16,548 nt of DNA from a candidate division KSB1 bacterium (GTDB lineage Bacteria; Zhuqueibacterota; JdFR-76; DREG01): assembly GCA_022566355.1 (NCBI GenBank), contig JADFJB010000105.1:1-16548 (forward strand). The letters are read 5' to 3'. Below the pieces are notes generated by a model, which ran no database searches, had not been told where the DNA came from, and saw only the letters and a program-made list of their open reading frames with translations. Positions 4,958 to 16,519 of the stretch are shown one piece after another. A program made the position numbers and the translations under genes. Position 1 is the stretch's first letter. Each line of letters starts with the position of its first letter.

Positions 4958-6652
4958 ATGAAATTCATATATTTACTACCTACCATGATTTTTTTCGTCC
5001 CGTTATTATTAGCACAAGACCGCATCACCGGCAGATCGTTTGCCACCCGATCCGAAGTGATAGCCCAAAATGGGATGGCGGCGACGAGTCAACCCTTAGC
5101 CACACAAGTGGCCCTTGATATTCTCAAGCAGGGTGGTACTGCTGTCGATGCTGCAATTGCAGCCAATGCCATGCTTGGTCTTGTTGAACCCACGGGCAGC
5201 GGAATTGGCGGTGACCTTTTTGCCATTGTCTGGGACGCCAAAACCCAGAAGCTTTATGGATTAAATGGAAGCGGCCGTTCACCTTATTCCTTAACCCTTG
5301 ATTATTTCAAGCAAAATGGTTATAAGCAAATTCCGAGTCGCGGGCCGTTGCCGGTTTCGGTGCCGGGCTGTGTGGACGGTTGGTTTGAATTACACAAGAA
5401 GTTTGGCAAATTGTCTATGGAATCCATTTTAGGACCTACCATAAAATACGCCCGGAAGGGTTTCCCGGTATCGGAACTGATTGCGTATTATATGCAGGCT
5501 CATGTGCCAATCTTGCAGGAATGGCCGGGTTTTAAGGAAACTTTTATGCCAAACGGCAGAGCGCCGGAAAAAGGTGAAATATTTAAAAATCCGAAATTAG
5601 CCAACACCCTGGAAAAAATCGCAAAAGGCGGCCGGGATGTCTTTTACAAAGGCGAGATTGCCAAAACCATCGATGCGTTTATGAAAAGAGTAGGTGGATT
5701 TCTTTCCTACAAAGATTTAGCAGATCATTCTTCAGAATGGGTTGAGCCGGTTTCCACTAATTATCGCGGCTACGATGTCTGGGAACTGCCACCCAATGGA
5801 CAGGGAATTGCCGCCCTGCAAATCTTAAATATTCTCGAAGGTTTTGATTTAAAGAGTATGGGCTTTGCCAGTACAGAATATATACCTCATTTTTTGGAAG
5901 CGAAGAAATTGGCATTCGAAGATCGAGCCAAATATTATGCCGATCCGGATTTTAATGAGATTCCGGTTGACTGGCTTATCTCTAAAGAATATGCTGAGGA
6001 GAGACGCAAGCTCATCGATCCTCATCGAGCGGCTTGGCGCTATGACGTTGGCAATCCCAGTCTGGAAGCTGGTGATACCATCTATCTGACTGTTGCCGAT
6101 AGTGAAGGCAACATGGTTTCGTTGATTCAGAGCAATTATCGTGGCATGGGATGCGGCCTTTCTCCGGATGGATTGGGATTTATTTTTCAAGATCGTGGTG
6201 AATTGTTCACTCTCGAAGAAGGTCATTTTAATACGTATGCACCGCACAAACGTCCGTTTCATACGATCATTCCAGCATTTATCACCAAAGACGGTAAGCC
6301 CTACATGAGCTTTGGCGTTATGGGTGGCGCTACCCAACCCCAGGCACATGCGCAAATCGTAATCAACATGGTTGATTTCGGTATGAATCTGCAAGAAGCC
6401 GGCGATGCCCCCCGGATTTTACATCAGGGCTCCTCCCAACCAACAGGTGAAGTAATGACAGACGGCGGATCTGTGTATCTGGAAACCGGAGTCGATTATG
6501 AGGTCATCCGGGAATTGGTAAAAATGGGGCACAATGTGGGCTACAATGTCGGTAGTTTTGGCGGTTATCAGGCTATTCTATTCGATTGGAAAAACAAGGT
6601 TTATTACGGTGCTTCCGAGTCCAGGAAGGATGGGCATGCGGCTGGGTATTGA
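4958..6652 (+). CDS. Secreted gamma-glutamyltransferase-family Ntn-hydrolase, copy 1 (intact)
   Basis: This 564-residue exported enzyme belongs to the GGT family, whose precursor self-cleaves so that a threonine becomes the N-terminal nucleophile of the small subunit. A signal peptide spans about residues 1-20 (hydrophobic run ending LLLAQ). The large subunit carries GGTAVDAAIAAN (59-70), GSGIGGD (80-86) and NGSGR (103-107). The cleavage site is GDTIYLTVADSEGN with Thr374 as nucleophile, leaving a small subunit 374-564. The residues that grip the glutamyl group in E. coli GGT differ: the NNQMDD block is FQDRGEL and the SS pair is HT (PFHTIIPAF). This is the YwrD-like pattern, so glutathione or glutamyl transfer is unlikely to be its reaction and an amide or acyl hydrolase is a better guess. 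GGAG (4946-4949) precedes the ATG. A near-identical damaged duplicate lies at 7912-9324. Confidence 0.85.
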   Translation: MKFIYLLPTMIFFVPLLLAQDRITGRSFATRSEVIAQNGMAATSQPLATQVALDILKQGGTAVDAAIAANAMLGLVEPTGSGIGGDLFAIVWDAKTQKLYGLNGSGRSPYSLTLDYFKQNGYKQIPSRGPLPVSVPGCVDGWFELHKKFGKLSMESILGPTIKYARKGFPVSELIAYYMQAHVPILQEWPGFKETFMPNGRAPEKGEIFKNPKLANTLEKIAKGGRDVFYKGEIAKTIDAFMKRVGGFLSYKDLADHSSEWVEPVSTNYRGYDVWELPPNGQGIAALQILNILEGFDLKSMGFASTEYIPHFLEAKKLAFEDRAKYYADPDFNEIPVDWLISKEYAEERRKLIDPHRAAWRYDVGNPSLEAGDTIYLTVADSEGNMVSLIQSNYRGMGCGLSPDGLGFIFQDRGELFTLEEGHFNTYAPHKRPFHTIIPAFITKDGKPYMSFGVMGGATQPQAHAQIVINMVDFGMNLQEAGDAPRILHQGSSQPTGEVMTDGGSVYLETGVDYEVIRELVKMGHNVGYNVGSFGGYQAILFDWKNKVYYGASESRKDGHAAGY

Positions 6653-7161: not shown

Positions 7162-7386
7162 GTGAAAACAAAATTGAATTTAACCATAGAAAATGATTTG
7201 GTGCCAAAAAGCAAAAAGTACGCAAAGGCAAAAGGTATTTCCGTGTCCAAATTGGTGGAAAATATGCTGCGCGATGTAACGCAAAAGCACCAGGATTCGT
7301 TTTCGCAAAAATGGCAGGGTAAATTTAAAGCCGTAGAAAAAAATGAAATACGTTACAAAAAATTAGAAGAGCGGTATCTGCAATGA
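7162..7386 (+). CDS. DUF6364-family antitoxin (ribbon-helix-helix-like)
   Basis: This 74-residue protein begins with a beta-strand, KTKLNLTIENDLV (2-14), then two helices, PKSKKYAKAKGISVSKLVENML. That is the DUF6364/ribbon-helix-helix layout in which the strand contacts operator DNA. The basic C-terminal tail (about 40-74) would wrap the toxin. The start is GTG at 7162, chosen because GGAGG (7150-7154) lies 7 nt upstream and the family motif begins immediately. Its TGA overlaps the toxin ATG in an ATGA, which implies translational coupling. The antitoxin role follows from this pairing and the family. Confidence 0.85.
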   Translation: MKTKLNLTIENDLVPKSKKYAKAKGISVSKLVENMLRDVTQKHQDSFSQKWQGKFKAVEKNEIRYKKLEERYLQ

Positions 7387-7805
7387 TAGTATTTTTGGAT
7401 ACCGATATCCTCATCGACCTTGCATCAGACAGAAAGCCGTTTTCAGATGATGCCGCCACGCTAATCGATGCTGCAGAAAACCGCCATTTTGAAAGCTTCA
7501 TTGCCTGGCATTCGATCTCAAATTATTATTATATCGTTTCTGCAAAAGTAAAAAAACAAGACGCCATTGAATTTGTCAAAGATTTGCTACAGTTTGTAAA
7601 TGTGGCTTCAACATCAACCAAAGACGTTTTGTATGCCACTGGACTTCTGTTTTCTGATTTTGAGGATTCACTTCAGGTAGCAGCAGCTAAAGCATGTAAT
7701 GCAGAGGTAATACTCACCAGAAATGTGAAACATTACAAAGCCAGTCCAATTCAAGTCCAAACACCAACGGATTTTATAAAAAAGAATAAGCATTTTTTTA
7801 AGTAG
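7383..7805 (+). CDS. PIN_3-family toxin (VapC-like ribonuclease)
   Basis: This 140-residue PIN-domain protein is expected to be a Mg2+-dependent RNase inhibited by the antitoxin encoded just upstream. Acidic metal-site residues are visible: Asp6 and Asp8 in FLDTDILID, and Asp92, Glu94 and Asp95 in FSDFEDSLQVAAA. They are followed by LTRNVKHYKAS (111-121), the usual last PIN motif. The order matches the PIN_3 group that typically pairs with DUF6364 antitoxins. The gene looks complete and all catalytic positions are present, so the toxin is probably active. The pair is enclosed by direct repeats R1 and R2, the second starting 47 bp after its stop. The RNA target cannot be deduced from sequence. 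Confidence 0.88.
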   Translation: MIVFLDTDILIDLASDRKPFSDDAATLIDAAENRHFESFIAWHSISNYYYIVSAKVKKQDAIEFVKDLLQFVNVASTSTKDVLYATGLLFSDFEDSLQVAAAKACNAEVILTRNVKHYKASPIQVQTPTDFIKKNKHFFK

Positions 7806-7827: not shown

Positions 7828-7918
7828 GCCACGAATTTCACGAATTAACGAAACGAATAATAATTAGTGAAAATCCGTGTACATTTGTGGCAAAAAATAA
7901 TGTTAAAAATTTCGTTTG
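7828..7918. repeat. Palindromic repeat R2, direct copy of R1, fused to the truncated GGT-family copy
   Basis: Positions 7853-7918 are the direct copy of R1. R2 extends further left than R1 and there forms a long imperfect hairpin: CACGAATTTCACGAATTA (7830-7847) pairs with TAATTAGTGAAAATCCGTG (7861-7879), framed by GCCAC (7828-7832) and GTGGC (7887-7891). The right end, TCGTTTGCC, continues without a break into sequence homologous to the GGT-family gene from 5036. Part of the repeat is therefore now the 5' end of that open frame. Confidence 0.75.
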
Positions 7919-9480
7919 CCACCCGATCCGAAGTGATAGCCCAAAATGGGATGGCGGCGACGAGTCAACCCTTAGCCACACAAGTGGCCCTTGATATTAA
8001 GCAAATTCCGAGTCGCGGGCCGTTGCCGGTTTCGGTGCCGGGCTGTGTGGACGGTTGGTTTGAATTACACAAGAAGTTTGGCAAATTGTCTATGGAATCC
8101 ATTTTAGGACCTACCATAAAATACGCCCGGAAGGGTTTCCCGGTATCGGAACTGATTGCGTATTATATGCAGGCTAATGTGCCAATCTTGCAGGAATGGC
8201 CGGGTTTTAAGGAAACTTTTATGCCAAACGGCAGAGCGCCGGAAAAAGGTGAAATATTTAAAAATCCGAAATTAGCCAACACCCTGGAAAAAATCGCAAA
8301 AGGCGGCCGGGATGTCTTTTACAAAGGCGAGATTGCCAAAACCATCGATGCGTTTATGAAAAGAGTAGGTGGATTTCTTTCCTACAAAGATTTAGCAGAT
8401 CATTCTTCAGAATGGGTTGAGCCGGTTTCCACTAATTATCGCGGATACGATGTCTGGGAACTGCCACCCAATGGACAGGGAATTGCCGCCCTGCAAATCT
8501 TAAATATTCTCGAAGGCTTTGATTTAAAAAGTATGGGTTTTGCCAGTACAGAATATATCCATCATTTTTTGGAAGCGAAGAAATTGGCCTTCGAGGATCG
8601 CGCCAAATATTATGCCGATCCGGATTTTAATGAGATTCCGGTTGACTGGCTTATCTCTAAAGAATATGCTGAGAAGAGACGCAAGCTCATCGATCCTCAT
8701 CGAGCGGCTTGGCGCTATGACGTTGGCAATCCCAGTCTGGAAGCTGGTGATACCATCTATCTGACTGTTGCCGATAGTGAAGGCAACATGGTTTCGTTGA
8801 TTCAAAGCAATTATCGTGGCATGGGATGCGGCCTTTCCCCGGATGGATTGGGATTTATTTTTCAAGATCGCGGTGAATTGTTCACTCTCGAAGAAGGTCA
8901 TTTTAATACGTATGCACCGCACAAACGTCCGTTTCATACGATCATTCCAGCATTTATCACCAAAGACGGTAAGCCCTACATGAGCTTTGGCGTTATGGGT
9001 GGTGCTACCCAACCGCAGGCACATGCGCAAATCGTAATCAACATGGTTGATTTTGGTATGAATCTGCAAGAAGCCGGCGATGCCCCTCGGATTTTACACC
9101 AGGGCTCCTCCCAACCAACAGGTGAAGTAATGACAGACGGCGGATCTGTGTATCTGGAAACCGGAGTCGATTATGAGGTCATCCGGGAATTGGTAAAAAT
9201 GGGGCACAATGTGGGCTACAATGTCGGTAGTTTTGGCGGTTATCAGGCTATTCTATTCGATTGGAAAAACAAGGTTTATTACGGCGCTTCCGAGTCCAGG
9301 AAGGATGGACAGGCGGCTGGGTATGAATGGTTATCAGACGTAACTTCAAGTACCGTCTTTTTTATTATAATCATGAATAACAGCTTTGGAATTTGGAATA
9401 GGTTGTCCAGTTGCTTCACTATAAAGTACGTCAGGGCAAAAATCCACATCGTTTGGCCACACAAGCGTTCCAATTTCTGA
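7867..9480 (+). CDS. GGT-family duplicate, copy 2: internally deleted, no signal peptide, readthrough (probable pseudogene)
   Basis: Positions 7912-9324 match copy 1 (5036-6649) with about two dozen differences by eye, mostly silent, and one gap of exactly 201 bp. That gap removes copy-1 residues 56-122, including GGTAVDAAIAAN, GSGIGGD and NGSGR. The signal peptide is replaced by codons from repeat R2 (GTG at 7867 or ATG at 7900, neither with a Shine-Dalgarno). The 3' end loses the TGA by one base and reads about 50 foreign residues to 9480, antisense to DUF2442. The nucleophile GDTIYL (Thr296) is kept. Loss of export and of core N-terminal strands makes activity unlikely, yet the frame is open. 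The changes H-to-N, P-to-H, E-to-K and H-to-Q are the only substitutions in the shared part. At the P/H site copy 2 carries His, as family members usually do (YIHHF), so copy 1 is not ancestral everywhere. Confidence 0.8.
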   Translation: MKIRVHLWQKIMLKISFATRSEVIAQNGMAATSQPLATQVALDIKQIPSRGPLPVSVPGCVDGWFELHKKFGKLSMESILGPTIKYARKGFPVSELIAYYMQANVPILQEWPGFKETFMPNGRAPEKGEIFKNPKLANTLEKIAKGGRDVFYKGEIAKTIDAFMKRVGGFLSYKDLADHSSEWVEPVSTNYRGYDVWELPPNGQGIAALQILNILEGFDLKSMGFASTEYIHHFLEAKKLAFEDRAKYYADPDFNEIPVDWLISKEYAEKRRKLIDPHRAAWRYDVGNPSLEAGDTIYLTVADSEGNMVSLIQSNYRGMGCGLSPDGLGFIFQDRGELFTLEEGHFNTYAPHKRPFHTIIPAFITKDGKPYMSFGVMGGATQPQAHAQIVINMVDFGMNLQEAGDAPRILHQGSSQPTGEVMTDGGSVYLETGVDYEVIRELVKMGHNVGYNVGSFGGYQAILFDWKNKVYYGASESRKDGQAAGYEWLSDVTSSTVFFIIIMNNSFGIWNRLSSCFTIKYVRAKIHIVWPHKRSNF

Positions 9481-11984: not shown

Positions 11985-12272
11985 TCAATAAATATAATTA
12001 CTGTAACATATAAAATTTGTACTTATCAATATCAAAAAAAGCATAGTTAATAATAATTCCCCTCTCGAGAGGGGAAGAAAATCCCGTCCCGGACGGATTT
12101 TCAGGGGTGTGTAATTATCGAGTGGTTTCTGATGGTGGAAATCGTATACGCAAATTTGTTTTCCTTTTAGTTTCTTCCAGAGCAAGATCTCAGACAATGT
12201 GCTGTTATTGCGGAGATTTCTGGCTAATTCTTTTAGTATTGGGTTGTATGGTATGAGTTTGCGTTTTGGCAT
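11985..12272 (-). pseudogene. Truncated DUF559 (Vsr-like) endonuclease gene fused to palindromic repeat
   Basis: The first 52 residues are typical DUF559 sequence: NPILKELARNLRNNSTLSEI (10-29), LLWKKLKGKQ (30-39) and YDFHHQKPLDNY (43-54, the last residues shared with the repeat). A full DUF559 protein is about 110-125 residues and continues with IVDFYC-type strands carrying the Vsr-like catalytic acids. Here the sequence instead turns into repeat DNA translated as TPLKIRPGRDFLPLSRG and then random hydrophobic sequence. The break coincides with the start of the repeat AATTACACACCCCT (- strand, 12116-12103), so the catalytic half is lost. The remaining frame is open to 11985 but should encode no active nuclease. 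The start at 12272 fits the family. Confidence 0.75.
12057..12116 (-). repeat. Palindromic repeat, left copy (inside the DUF559 frame)
   Basis: Read on the - strand, it starts AATTACACACCCCT (12116-12103) and contains a second dyad, AAAATCC/GGATTTT with GTCC/GGAC inside (12078-12101). It ends in the 20-bp perfect palindrome TTCCCCTCTCGAGAGGGGAA (12057-12076). An inverted relative lies at 12297-12332. No transposase is adjacent. Confidence 0.75.
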
Positions 12273-12296
12273 GAGTTAATGGGTTTTTTAGAGCAA

Positions 12297-12332
12297 AATT
12301 ACACACCCCTAAATCCCCTCTCTCGAGAGGGG
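12297..12332 (+). repeat. Palindromic repeat, right copy, upstream of the DUF559 remnant
   Basis: AATTACACACCCCT (12297-12310) is an exact inverted match to 12103-12116. It is followed by TAAAT-type spacer bases and the hairpin CCCCTCTC (12315-12322)/GAGAGGGG (12325-12332). Together with the left copy it brackets the DUF559 coding remnant in inverted orientation. The dyad inserted in the left copy (12078-12101) is absent here. Confidence 0.75.
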
Positions 12333-12458
12333 ACTTTGGAATTCTTTTTTCTTTCCCTTATTTTGTTGAAATAATTTACAGCAAGTTTTCAACTAGTCGT
12401 TCCTATTAATATCCCATACCCATATCGTTATCAATTTCTTAGTTTTACCACTGCGACT

Positions 12459-12752: not shown

Positions 12753-13154
12753 CTATACCCAATTTTCAATTTTGAGATTTTCAATTTTATTAAATTCATT
12801 TATGTTATTTGTAATAAGAGTGGCATTTATGTGTACTGCATGTGTACTAATTAATAAATCTAATTGACCAATACGGTCGCCTATTTTTTTTAATTTTGCT
12901 CTTATTTCACCATATGTATGAGCTGCATCGCCTGGGTAATCTAATATATTTAGTGGGGTTAAGAATTCATTTAATGCGTCTTGATTTTCTTTTTTCATCT
13001 TACTATTTGCAACTCCATATTGAAGCTCGCAATAGGTGATGGATGATATCCCGATCTCACCAAGCTTTATGTTTTTAAATTTATCAATAACTTTCTGTGG
13101 GGTTTTTTTTATTATATAGATACAAATATTTGTATCCAGCATGTATTTTATCAA
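12753..13154 (-). CDS. vapC: VapC-family PIN-domain toxin
   Basis: This 133-residue PIN-domain ribonuclease is inhibited in the cell by the VapB encoded immediately upstream. Catalytic acids are Asp7 (YMLDTNICIYII, 4-15), Glu43 (SSITYCELQYGV, 37-48) and Asp99 (GQLDLLISTHAV, 96-107), followed by TNNINEF (115-121). All are intact, as in the MvpA/VapC group that cleaves initiator tRNA; that target is known for relatives and only inferred here. The reading frame's first usable codon is TTG (13154), giving a TTGA overlap with the vapB stop. An ATG four codons on (13142) would start at MLDTNI, also common in the family, so the start is uncertain by four residues. Confidence 0.9.
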   Translation of the reverse strand: MIKYMLDTNICIYIIKKTPQKVIDKFKNIKLGEIGISSITYCELQYGVANSKMKKENQDALNEFLTPLNILDYPGDAAHTYGEIRAKLKKIGDRIGQLDLLISTHAVHINATLITNNINEFNKIENLKIENWV

Positions 13155-13384
13155 TCGAACTTTTCTCTTTTTTGCTCTTCTCCCTGGTCACGATCCGACA
13201 TAAAATCCTCTGAAAATTTAGAGCATGCATCGAACATTGTCTTCCATGGATTTTCCTTAGGGATCAATACTACACATTCACCTAGCCTATTTATATAAAC
13301 TGATTTATCTTTAAACCTGAATTCCTTTGGTAGTCTAACTGCCTGACTATGTCCATTCATGAAAATTTTAGCTTCTTTCATCAT
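13151..13384 (-). CDS. vapB: VapB-family antitoxin (AbrB/SpoVT-like)
   Basis: The first part of this protein is a swapped-hairpin AbrB DNA-binding domain with the hallmark AKIFMNGHSQAVRLPKEF (about 5-22), followed by VYINRLGECVVLIPKENPW. The acidic-basic tail FSEDFMSDRDQGEEQKREKFD would bind and block VapC. The frame is open to 13435, but VapB proteins start just before AKIF, and a good promoter places the transcript start at about 13384-13385. I therefore chose the ATGATG at 13384/13381, giving 77-78 residues. The stop overlaps the vapC start by 4 nt. VapB normally represses its own operon, and the dyad overlapping the -10 fits that. Confidence 0.88.
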   Translation of the reverse strand: MMKEAKIFMNGHSQAVRLPKEFRFKDKSVYINRLGECVVLIPKENPWKTMFDACSKFSEDFMSDRDQGEEQKREKFD

Positions 13385-13388
13385 GCGT

Positions 13389-13419
13389 AAAGTATATACT
13401 TTAGAATAGAGATTTCCAA
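13389..13419 (-). promoter_or_regulatory. vapBC promoter with overlapping 14-bp operator palindrome
   Basis: On the - strand, TTGGAA (13419-13414) and TATACT (13396-13391) are 17 bp apart, matching -35 4/6 and -10 5/6. The -10 lies inside the perfect palindrome AAAGTATATACTTT (13389-13402), a plausible VapB operator. A start about 7 nt past the -10 falls on the ATGATG of vapB, implying a leaderless or nearly leaderless mRNA; no Shine-Dalgarno would fit between. Confidence 0.6.
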
Positions 13420-13516
13420 GTTTTTTTGTAAACAATAAGAAATAACAAAATCGCAGTAAGCTTTTAATTGATTAGAAACATTGTCACGAGTCAATGCCAA
13501 GCAAAAGAACCTGTAT

Positions 13517-14626: not shown

Positions 14627-14663
14627 AAATCCGAAATCCGAAATTAGAATTTAGTATTTGTTT
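14627..14663. repeat. Dispersed 'AAATCCGAAATCCG' repeat at the 3' end of the GGT-family gene
   Basis: The stretch contains the tandem AAATCCGAAATCCGAAATTAG followed by AATTTAGTATTTGTTT. It shares GAAATCCGAA and the ATTAGAATTT/TTTGTTT blocks with 4771-4935. It abuts the stop codon of the - strand GGT-family gene. I read it as another copy of the same intergenic repeat. Confidence 0.4.
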
Positions 14664-16519
14664 CACCAGGCGATACCATAATCTTCACCAGAATTACTCA
14701 CACCGCCCCAGAACGATCCGTGCTCCCAATCGAAATAAATGGCTGTGATGGGCCCGGATGTTCTATTCCTAAAATCTAATCGATATCCCATATCTGCCAA
14801 TTTAGATCGCACCCATTTCGGAACTTCTTCATTCAAGACTAACCTGCCTGGAGTGGCATCATGCTTGCCAAAAGAGCTTTGCATCTGGTAACTCGTTATA
14901 TTTGCCGCTTCACAGGCTTCCTGCACATTCATGCCGAATTCCACCACATTCAAAAAGAACTGCAACAAGTTTTGATCTTGGGAATCACCGCCCTGCACAG
15001 CAAAAGACAGGTACGGTTTACCATCCTTCAGAGCCATACTGGGTGTTAGTGTCGCTCGCGGTCTTTTACCTGCAACCGGTAAGTTGTAAGGATTTTTACC
15101 TTCATCGAGGACAAAGCTTTGCATTCTCTGGCTCATTCCGATACCCGTATTCCCGGCTATACAAGCCGGCATCCAGCCGCCGCTGGGAGTTACAGAAACC
15201 ACCCAACCTTCTTTATCAGCTGCCTGGATGGAAGTTGTTCCCGCGTAAAAACCCTCTTCGTATTCTGCTTTTTCTATTTCGCTCAGCGCGGCAACAGTCA
15301 CCGTATCTACATTCGACCACTTTTTGAGAAGATGCAGAAATGGGTTTTTCTTGCCTTCAAACGGATACGGATCGCCTGGTTTGACGTCCGGGTTATTCTT
15401 CTCCCAATCGATCAGTTTCATCCGTTCTTTAGCATATTCTTTGGAGAGCAATCCCTTAATGGGCTCTTCGGGTGGGAAATAGGGATCGCCGTAATAAAAA
15501 TCACGATCGGCAAATGCAAGATTCATGGCTTGATAAAGAGTGTGGATATATTTCGTACTGTTATAACTCATGGCGCTCAAATCAATATTTTCCAAAATAT
15601 TAAGCGCTTGCAGCAATACCGGACCCTGAACCCAGGTCGTCAATTTGTAGACTTCAATACCTTTGTAAGTGGTCATCACCGGTTCTTCGATGTAGACTTT
15701 CCAATTAGCTAAATCTTCTAAAGTGTGCAATCCGCCTTGTTCTTGTGAACCACGTACAAATTCTTTGGCGATATCGCCTTTATAGAAACGATCGTAAGCT
15801 GCATAAATAGCTTCTTTTCGAGACTTTCCTGCAGCCAAAGCTTTTTCCTCGGTTTCAACGAGTTTCTTCAAAGTGTTCAAAAGATCTGGTTGTTTGAATA
15901 TTTCACCAGCATAAGGAGCCTCATGCTCTTCTCCAAGATGGGGAAGGAACACTTTCTTCGAATACGGCCATTTTTTGATACGATCTTTTCCTCTTTCGAT
16001 ACTCCTGACAAGTTGTTCCTCAATCGGATAGCCCTCGGCCAATTGCATGGCTGGTTCCAGGACTTGTTTGAGGCTCATGCTGCCGTACTCGGCGAGCATC
16101 ACCATCAATCCGCCAGGTGTCCCCGGTGTAACGGCTGCCAATGGTCCATAAGCAGGCGGGTATTTCATGCCCTTTTCTTTGTAGAATTCGGCTGTTGCCC
16201 CGGTTGGAGCAACCCCTAACGCATTAATACCGATTACCTTTTTAGTATGAGGATTGTAAATCAAAGCTTGCGTTTCACCACCCCAGCTTAAAACATCATA
16301 CATAGTGCAAGTTGCTGCCAACATTGCGCATGTTGCATCTACCGCATTGCCACCGCGGTCAAAAATTTTAGCTCCGGCTGTAGCGCCCAATGGTTTGCCG
16401 GTAATCGCCACCCAATGCCTGCCATGAAGTACAGGTTTTTGTGTTTGTGCGATTAATTGTGCACCGAATAAAAAGGATATCACAATAGCACAGTAAATAG
16501 GTTTGCTCTTGAATGTCAT
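14663..16519 (-). CDS. Secreted gamma-glutamyltransferase-family Ntn-hydrolase, second type
   Basis: This 618-residue exported enzyme has a signal peptide at about 1-25 (SKPIYCAIVISFLFGAQLIAQ). The large subunit carries GGNAVDATCAML (56-67) and a WGGE turn in place of GSGIGGD. The autocleavage site is YAGTTSIQAADKEG with Thr428 as nucleophile. Before it lies an extra stretch (about 370-420), so the protein is longer than classical GGTs (about 550-580). The glutamyl-binding NNQMDD block is replaced by GMSQRMQSF, and the serine pair by RAT (KRPRATLTPSMAL), so glutathione is an unlikely substrate and an acylase or peptidase-like role is more likely. It is a distant paralogue of the copies at 4958 and 7867, not part of that duplication. 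A perfect AGGAGGT (+ strand 16525-16531) lies 5 nt from the ATG, predicting strong translation. Confidence 0.87.
   Translation of the reverse strand: MTFKSKPIYCAIVISFLFGAQLIAQTQKPVLHGRHWVAITGKPLGATAGAKIFDRGGNAVDATCAMLAATCTMYDVLSWGGETQALIYNPHTKKVIGINALGVAPTGATAEFYKEKGMKYPPAYGPLAAVTPGTPGGLMVMLAEYGSMSLKQVLEPAMQLAEGYPIEEQLVRSIERGKDRIKKWPYSKKVFLPHLGEEHEAPYAGEIFKQPDLLNTLKKLVETEEKALAAGKSRKEAIYAAYDRFYKGDIAKEFVRGSQEQGGLHTLEDLANWKVYIEEPVMTTYKGIEVYKLTTWVQGPVLLQALNILENIDLSAMSYNSTKYIHTLYQAMNLAFADRDFYYGDPYFPPEEPIKGLLSKEYAKERMKLIDWEKNNPDVKPGDPYPFEGKKNPFLHLLKKWSNVDTVTVAALSEIEKAEYEEGFYAGTTSIQAADKEGWVVSVTPSGGWMPACIAGNTGIGMSQRMQSFVLDEGKNPYNLPVAGKRPRATLTPSMALKDGKPYLSFAVQGGDSQDQNLLQFFLNVVEFGMNVQEACEAANITSYQMQSSFGKHDATPGRLVLNEEVPKWVRSKLADMGYRLDFRNRTSGPITAIYFDWEHGSFWGGVSNSGEDYGIAW

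Follow-up and report, generated by a model that had tools for sequence, protein, structure and literature searches.

The stretch of DNA analyzed here (the window, 16,548 nucleotides from a candidate division KSB1 bacterium) raises the question of whether a decayed nuclease gene and the inverted palindromes that enclose it are parts of one repeat-spreading system, in the manner of RAYT enzymes and REP repeats, as the original prediction had it. The gene belongs to DUF559, a family that is widespread but, for the most part, functionally uncharacterized. A profile search gave a PF04480 (DUF559) match in the open reading frame at 11985–12272 on the minus strand, covering profile positions 4–44 of 109 (E = 1.2e-6), which bears out the proposed remnant. 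The match marks a gene remnant of the first 54 codons, as far as the DNY motif (12111–12272, minus strand). The reading frame runs from DNY directly into the left repeat, so the cut had been correctly placed at the point where that repeat begins. Of the residues invariant in 40 homologues (E27, D56, E67, D69, H73, and D80) the remnant retains E27 and lacks the other five; it is a catalytically dead, internally deleted element, unable to act because everything invariant but E27 is gone. An 87% relative with the same truncation codon lies on a separate contig (C157), where the fragment ends at the contig edge and a single flank can be compared with the window copy, and this pair is consistent with a deleted DUF559 derivative having been copied. 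The window copy resembles deletion-derived, non-autonomous elements of the MITE type in keeping both ends, losing the gene interior and having this relative elsewhere, although, unlike in the classical MITE setting, there is no classical transposase and no target-site duplication was seen.

The two repeats were described beforehand as inverted copies sharing an exact 14-bp sequence, and AATTACACACCCCT does occur at 12297–12310 on the plus strand and at 12103–12116 on the minus strand, inverted relative to each other. Exact copies of it number just four in the 4.62-Mb genome (two beyond the window pair) and zero in the reversed control. The palindromes are also as described, the left one (CCCCTCTCGAGAGGGG, 12059–12074) being perfect and the right one (12315–12332) near-perfect, and the palindrome pattern was absent from 200 shuffles of the window even when up to three mismatches were allowed. 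What has to be revised is the extent of the repeats, which are not palindromes alone: each consists of a hairpin, whose 5' arm is pyrimidine and whose 3' arm is purine, followed by a linker and by a G-rich tag, GGGGTGTGT, and the right one has a leader as well. On the plus strand, the left unit reads CCCCTCTCGAGAGGGG, then a 29-nt linker with a hairpin fold of its own, then GGGGTGTGT. Its hairpin, TTCCCCTCTCGAGAGGGGAA (12057–12076, purine arm AGAGGGG), has a single-strand DNA fold with z = −3.4, the linker hairpin, GAAAATCCCGTCCCGGACGGATTTTC, lies at 12077–12102 (plus strand, from single-strand fold and sequence) and recurs in solitary copies on five other contigs (C26, C121, C193, C12, and C134), and the putative third-strand tag at 12104–12112 (plus strand) mirrors the purine arm according to the class II triplex code. 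The right unit, on the minus strand, reads CCCCTCTC-GA-GAGAGGGG, linker ATTTA, GGGGTGTGT, with the hairpin at 12315–12332 (purine arm GAGAGGGG, from sequence and fold) and the tag at 12301–12309, and it matches the pattern AGAGGGGN{1,8}GGGGTGTGT at 12301–12321. Outside it lies a conserved leader of ~80 bp (12333–12411, minus strand), defined by the alignment of query positions 312–392 in C146, C44, and C68 and shared with copies on these contigs and on C113.

In the 3'-to-5' direction the purine arm GAGAGGGG becomes GGGGAGAG, to be compared with GGGGTGTG in the tag, a mirror relation in which G faces G and T faces A. To judge from these letters, the pairing code is that of an intrastrand triplex of class II, the antiparallel purine motif. 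Both window units fit that code (G-G, A-A/T) over 7–8 positions, where at least 6–7 triplets are called for, and the repeats are predicted to fold into a three-stranded hairpin.

The source genome contains one intact DUF559 gene (C146, PF04480 match of 102 bits), two disrupted ones (C139 and C82), and two truncated ones (the window and C157), and window-type units also occur singly on at least 12 other contigs. The gene on C82 is framed by a second type of unit (arm read GGAGGGGAA, tag GGAGGGGTT), which fits a second triplex-repeat family matched at 42 places in the genome, with many copies of 140–150 bp. There are, then, two kinds of DUF559 flanks in a single genome, and both kinds of unit are also dispersed in it. 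The window joins pieces of the two families, because its left flank (11997–12050, plus strand) is the 54-bp leader of the second family, truncated just before the first-family unit and 94% identical to positions 1–54 of the second-family query. In an alignment of 13 copies, these second-family repeats, 140–150 bp or more in length, have a conserved leader and a conserved tail, which may extend into a larger repeat (..GAATTTATGAAACAGACC).

The association of gene and units was examined at 80 DUF559 loci from a flank-blind peptide-pattern scan of 84,980 genomes, a sample unbiased by flanks since the loci were chosen by peptide pattern only. They span Bacteroidota, Planctomycetes (Brocadia), Nitrospirae, Desulfobacterota, Ignavibacteria, Cyanobacteria, Cloacimonetes, and others, and DUF559 genes with adjoining triplex units were found in about ten phyla. 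Within 250 bp, units in the predicted orientation flank the gene at 74 of the 80 loci, on one side or both, and at 48 of these on both; an upstream unit lies on the plus strand at 63/80 and a downstream unit on the minus strand at 59/80. Distal controls taken 1000–2000 bp away had units on 18 of 1172 segment-strands, and shuffled flanks gave none in 480 with the strict finder. The enrichment of palindromes near intact DUF559 genes that had been anticipated is thus evident. A second set of loci, from the small phylum of the window itself, gave a perfect unit at 22/29 loci vs. 1/198 distal segment-strands, and at L124 and L126 of this phylum the DUF559 genes are flanked by units of the E. coli type (GGGAGAGGG/GGGTGAGGG). 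The window pattern was tried as a universal marker and discarded: it matches 9 of 82 genomes of this phylum, six of the nine with DUF559, and it is unfit as a general presence test because it represents one of about 20 unit types. Among ten records from a plasmid collection, the finder detected units in Pseudanabaena, Sphingomonas, Azospirillum, Sinorhizobium, and Photobacterium, units were recognized by eye in Neisseria gonorrhoeae (DUF559 locus L170) and Deinococcus, and no unit passed the finder in the Picosynechococcus, Synechocystis, and P. aeruginosa records. Phage records gave just two distant DUF559 matches. The tags mostly point inward around the genes, and outward in dimers and in the Deinococcus element (see below). 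Gene and unit may even overlap: in many Flavobacteriia the unit encodes the protein tail HTPNPSQEGN, because the stop codon of the gene lies beyond it, and in E. coli the C-terminus of YcjD (SPSP) coincides with a degenerate unit, which is followed about 170 bp downstream by a full one.

The relation between arm and tag was assessed in the 135 hairpins nearest to DUF559 genes, picked blind to the tag. Of these, 119 have a tag that obeys the triplex code without exception (G opposite G, T or A opposite A), compared with 1 under an A-to-A-only code, 0 under A-to-C, and 29 under a direct-repeat code; a Watson–Crick or direct-repeat relation between tag and stem, which fits just those 29/135, was rejected. 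When arms were shuffled among loci, perfect matches averaged 66 and did not exceed 79. Counting distinct arms, with both locus sets pooled, 19/23 match their own tag perfectly, vs. 38/506 swapped pairs. The covariation spans about 20 distinct arm (3' to 5')/tag pairs, such as GGGGAGA/GGGGTGT, GGGGGGA/GGGGGGT, GGGGAGG/GGGGTGG, GGGGGAA/GGGGGAT, GGGAGGA/GGGAGGT, GGAGGAA/GGAGGAT, GGGGAAGAG/GGGGATGAG, and the E. coli type given above, and has no easy explanation other than pairing of tag and stem at some point. The triplex would form as DNA in the cell. Single-stranded DNA of the E. coli TM motif adopts a stable triplex in vitro, and neither duplex TM DNA nor footprinting in vivo gave a triplex signal (PMC4666352). 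The covariation of stem and tag is evolutionary evidence of natural selection for the three-stranded form, despite there being none in the in vivo footprints.

Units of this kind have a history of their own, and Hoyne 2000 is reportedly named along with Holder et al. 2015 for the PIT, boxC, and TM_ECO triplex motifs. PIT/boxC/TM repeats share with window-type units the class II order (pyrimidine arm, loop, purine arm, loop, third strand) and are likewise intergenic, dispersed and often in inverted pairs. They are abundant in >260 genomes, and the 2015 survey saw no mobility functions nearby (Holder et al., 2015; PMC4666352). Unlike these published orphan repeats, the units described here frame DUF559 in about ten phyla and comprise about 20 covarying types. 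The comparison with REP/RAYT, proposed from the one locus, stands as far as association, orientation and dispersed units are concerned, but the repeat turns out to be an intrastrand-triplex unit already catalogued as PIT/boxC/TM. Both systems have a small nuclease gene within inverted hairpin repeats that carry a short single-stranded tag, and in both there are dispersed solitary units, inverted dimers and a gene that is often decayed; as in REPtrons and REPINs, the inverted repeats flanking DUF559 are also dispersed singly and as inverted dimers. The enzymes differ, an HUH Y1 transposase in REP/RAYT and a PD-(D/E)XK Vsr-like nuclease in DUF559, and so do the tags, GTAG in the former and a G-rich third strand mirroring the stem in the latter. 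The gene is no HUH Y1 (IS200/IS605-like) transposase, matching PF04480/DUF559 and having a Vsr-like fold, and in place of GTAG beside an imperfect palindrome there is GGGGTGTGT or its covarying variants. Since the HUH enzyme and the GTAG tag are absent, this is not a RAYT system; it is a pairing of repeat and nuclease akin to REP/RAYT, with a different enzyme fold and DNA structure.

The protein itself was modeled with AlphaFold (pLDDT 92.8), and the model is closest to NGO0050 of N. gonorrhoeae (3HRL; Z 16.1, rmsd 0.8 over 94 residues), followed by I-Bth0305I (Z 11.9) and Vsr (Z 9.7). On the strength of this model DUF559 is taken to be a PD-(D/E)XK nuclease of the Vsr/I-Bth0305I fold, and all three comparators share the fold and a similar pattern of catalytic residues. 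The intact gene on C146 matches PF04480, and the catalytic residues are conserved in the 40 homologues, the window remnant having E27 only. Vsr targets T:G mismatches, I-Bth0305I serves in intron homing, and no link of either to triplex repeats is known, whereas the N. gonorrhoeae DUF559 locus does have triplex units nearby. For VsrA, a DUF559 protein of Caulobacter, a role in mismatch repair has been proposed (PMC12907096).

Among 398 genomes of the genus Flavobacterium, whose species share ancestry, PF04480 occurs in 49/53 with a window-type unit vs. 169/345 without (odds ratio 12.8, p = 2e-10), a contrast that is diluted because many PF04480 matches are domains of about 1000-aa proteins. 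A reversed control pattern had no occurrence in the same 398 genomes. PF04480 in this genus often lies within open frames of about 1000–1250 aa. Some Flavobacterium genomes also display clusters of units on one strand over tens of kilobases (L154, at G258:C1:73500-77500, as well as G242, G493, and G429), one array having a 95-bp spacing. A combined query on an even sample of E. coli records, scoring the presence of ycjD (the DUF559 gene) and the number of TM units, gave a median of 21 units (14–30, n = 37) in genomes with ycjD and of 10.5 (1–16, n = 20) in those without, a difference to be read as support and not proof, because it is confounded by phylogroups, following clades, and because O157:H7 strains have units (about 14) and no ycjD. 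K-12 has ycjD and about 20 units. The expectation that solitary units would go with DUF559 therefore held for Flavobacterium as a whole, but met exceptions in G004 (six units) and four Flavobacterium genomes, which have units without a DUF559 match, and in O157:H7.

Bearing on movement are dispersed dimers and sites where the element is present in some genomes and absent from others. One Flavobacterium has inverted REPIN-like dimers at three sites, the interior being conserved and the flanks diverging at the tags, and in a related Flavobacterium (G242) one of the dimers is absent at the orthologous gene junction. Perhaps the cleanest candidate for an autonomous element seen is on a plasmid of Deinococcus psychrotolerans (NZ_CP034185.1; L171, 1416–1936), where DUF559 lies within inverted repeats of ~55 bp that contain units with outward tags; it sits between paaD and paaZ, inside the paa operon, and is absent from a related plasmid (QL22). 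The E. coli TM sites lldD-trmL and yhfZ-trpS are present or absent depending on the strain. The element-less sites (G242, QL22, lldD-trmL, and yhfZ-trpS) yielded no clean insertion junction or target-site duplication, and differ from the occupied ones by a replaced stretch. The ycjD locus was considered as a clean empty site and set aside, and it is not diagnostic, because in genomes without ycjD its place is occupied by eef efflux genes.

From the association, orientation, covariation, dispersal and co-occurrence described above we infer a model in which a triplex formed in the cell would be recognized, cleaved and mobilized. On one DNA strand, the tag would fold back antiparallel on the purine arm (G.G-C; T.A-T or A.A-T triplets), and DUF559 would most likely recognize the folded unit when the strand is single-stranded, during replication or repair, and nick it at the tag or next to it. 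Copying of the unit or dimer to other places would then fall to host polymerase, ligase or recombination, so that units and dimers, as non-autonomous repeats, would spread in trans much as REPINs do through RAYT. We consider it probable that DUF559 processes the folded unit ends and spreads them as RAYT does REP/REPINs, via a different enzyme and DNA structure, and the family is the best candidate yet for spreading PIT/boxC/TM-type repeats. There is about an even chance that DUF559 elements are a distinct class of bacterial mobile DNA, with a Vsr-fold nuclease that recognizes the ends as intramolecular triplexes, that they are the source of the PIT/boxC/TM repeats in hundreds of genomes, and that YcjD is their E. 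coli member.

Other readings of the same data have to be weighed. DUF559 might be a selfish gene of the homing type, its insertion sites being triplex repeats that already exist and that spread by other means; the homing endonuclease I-Bth0305I is the closest characterized fold after NGO0050, and units do occur in genomes without a DUF559 match. We regard this as rather unlikely, since both sides of the gene hold complete, opposed hairpin-plus-tag units and not the halves of one split site, an association between unit copy number and DUF559 would not be predicted, and unit type tracks DUF559 relatedness, if weakly (Mantel r 0.20, with 8/2000 permutations as high). The Vsr fold, the role proposed for Caulobacter VsrA in mismatch repair (PMC12907096), and the instability of TM loci in E. 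coli (PMC4666352) would all suit a repair or guardian enzyme, kept next to unstable triplex repeats and resolving the structures there without mobilizing them. A repair enzyme that acts in trans, however, need not be physically linked to a unit on each side, and decayed genes that keep both units, like gene 3' ends encoded by units, are left unexplained by it, which makes a purely protective role distinctly improbable.

Two further proposals separate the units from the nuclease altogether. It is very unlikely that an unrelated enzyme, RAYT or another transposase, moves the units with DUF559 as a passenger; in the yhfZ-trpS interval one strain has a GTAG REP-like sequence where others have a TM unit, but the association found is with DUF559, no transposase lies near TM loci according to Holder et al. 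(PMC4666352), and the units do not have the GTAG tag of RAYT substrates. That the palindromes are ordinary bidirectional terminators, such as might flank any small mobile gene, is scarcely credible even if the left hairpin and its AT-rich tail score as terminator-like on the minus strand: terminators need no G-rich mirror tag, and E. coli PIT/TM motifs have no terminator activity (as cited in PMC4666352). This explanation was rejected on that ground and on the tag code, which is kept in 119/135 hairpins and covaries with the arm.

Spreading by DUF559 would address a long-standing problem. Triplex-forming repeats have been known for more than two decades in E. coli and in >260 genomes, and their spread had been unexplained. 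If mobilization is true, we know of no earlier mobile element whose ends are recognized in the form of a DNA triplex, and the task that RAYT performs for REP repeats would have been solved a second time, independently. The searchable literature, judged largely by title and with subscription journals outside it, gave no link of DUF559 or COG2852 to triplex or palindromic repeats.

Some minor observations concern the surroundings of the two window repeats and the yhfZ-trpS site. At the latter, the GTAG REP-like sequence belongs to E. coli 1919D3 (L201), and strains of group B2 have neither this sequence nor the TM unit found in others. Within the window, gamma-glutamyltransferase-like genes are found three times (4958–6652, 7867–9480, and 14663–16519), the copies at 4958–6652 and 7867–9480 being near-identical and in tandem, with the one at 7867–9480 damaged at its 5' end. 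PIN-domain (VapC-like) toxin genes are located near the repeat locus at 12753–13435 and 7383–7805, one of them paired with a MazE-like antitoxin gene.
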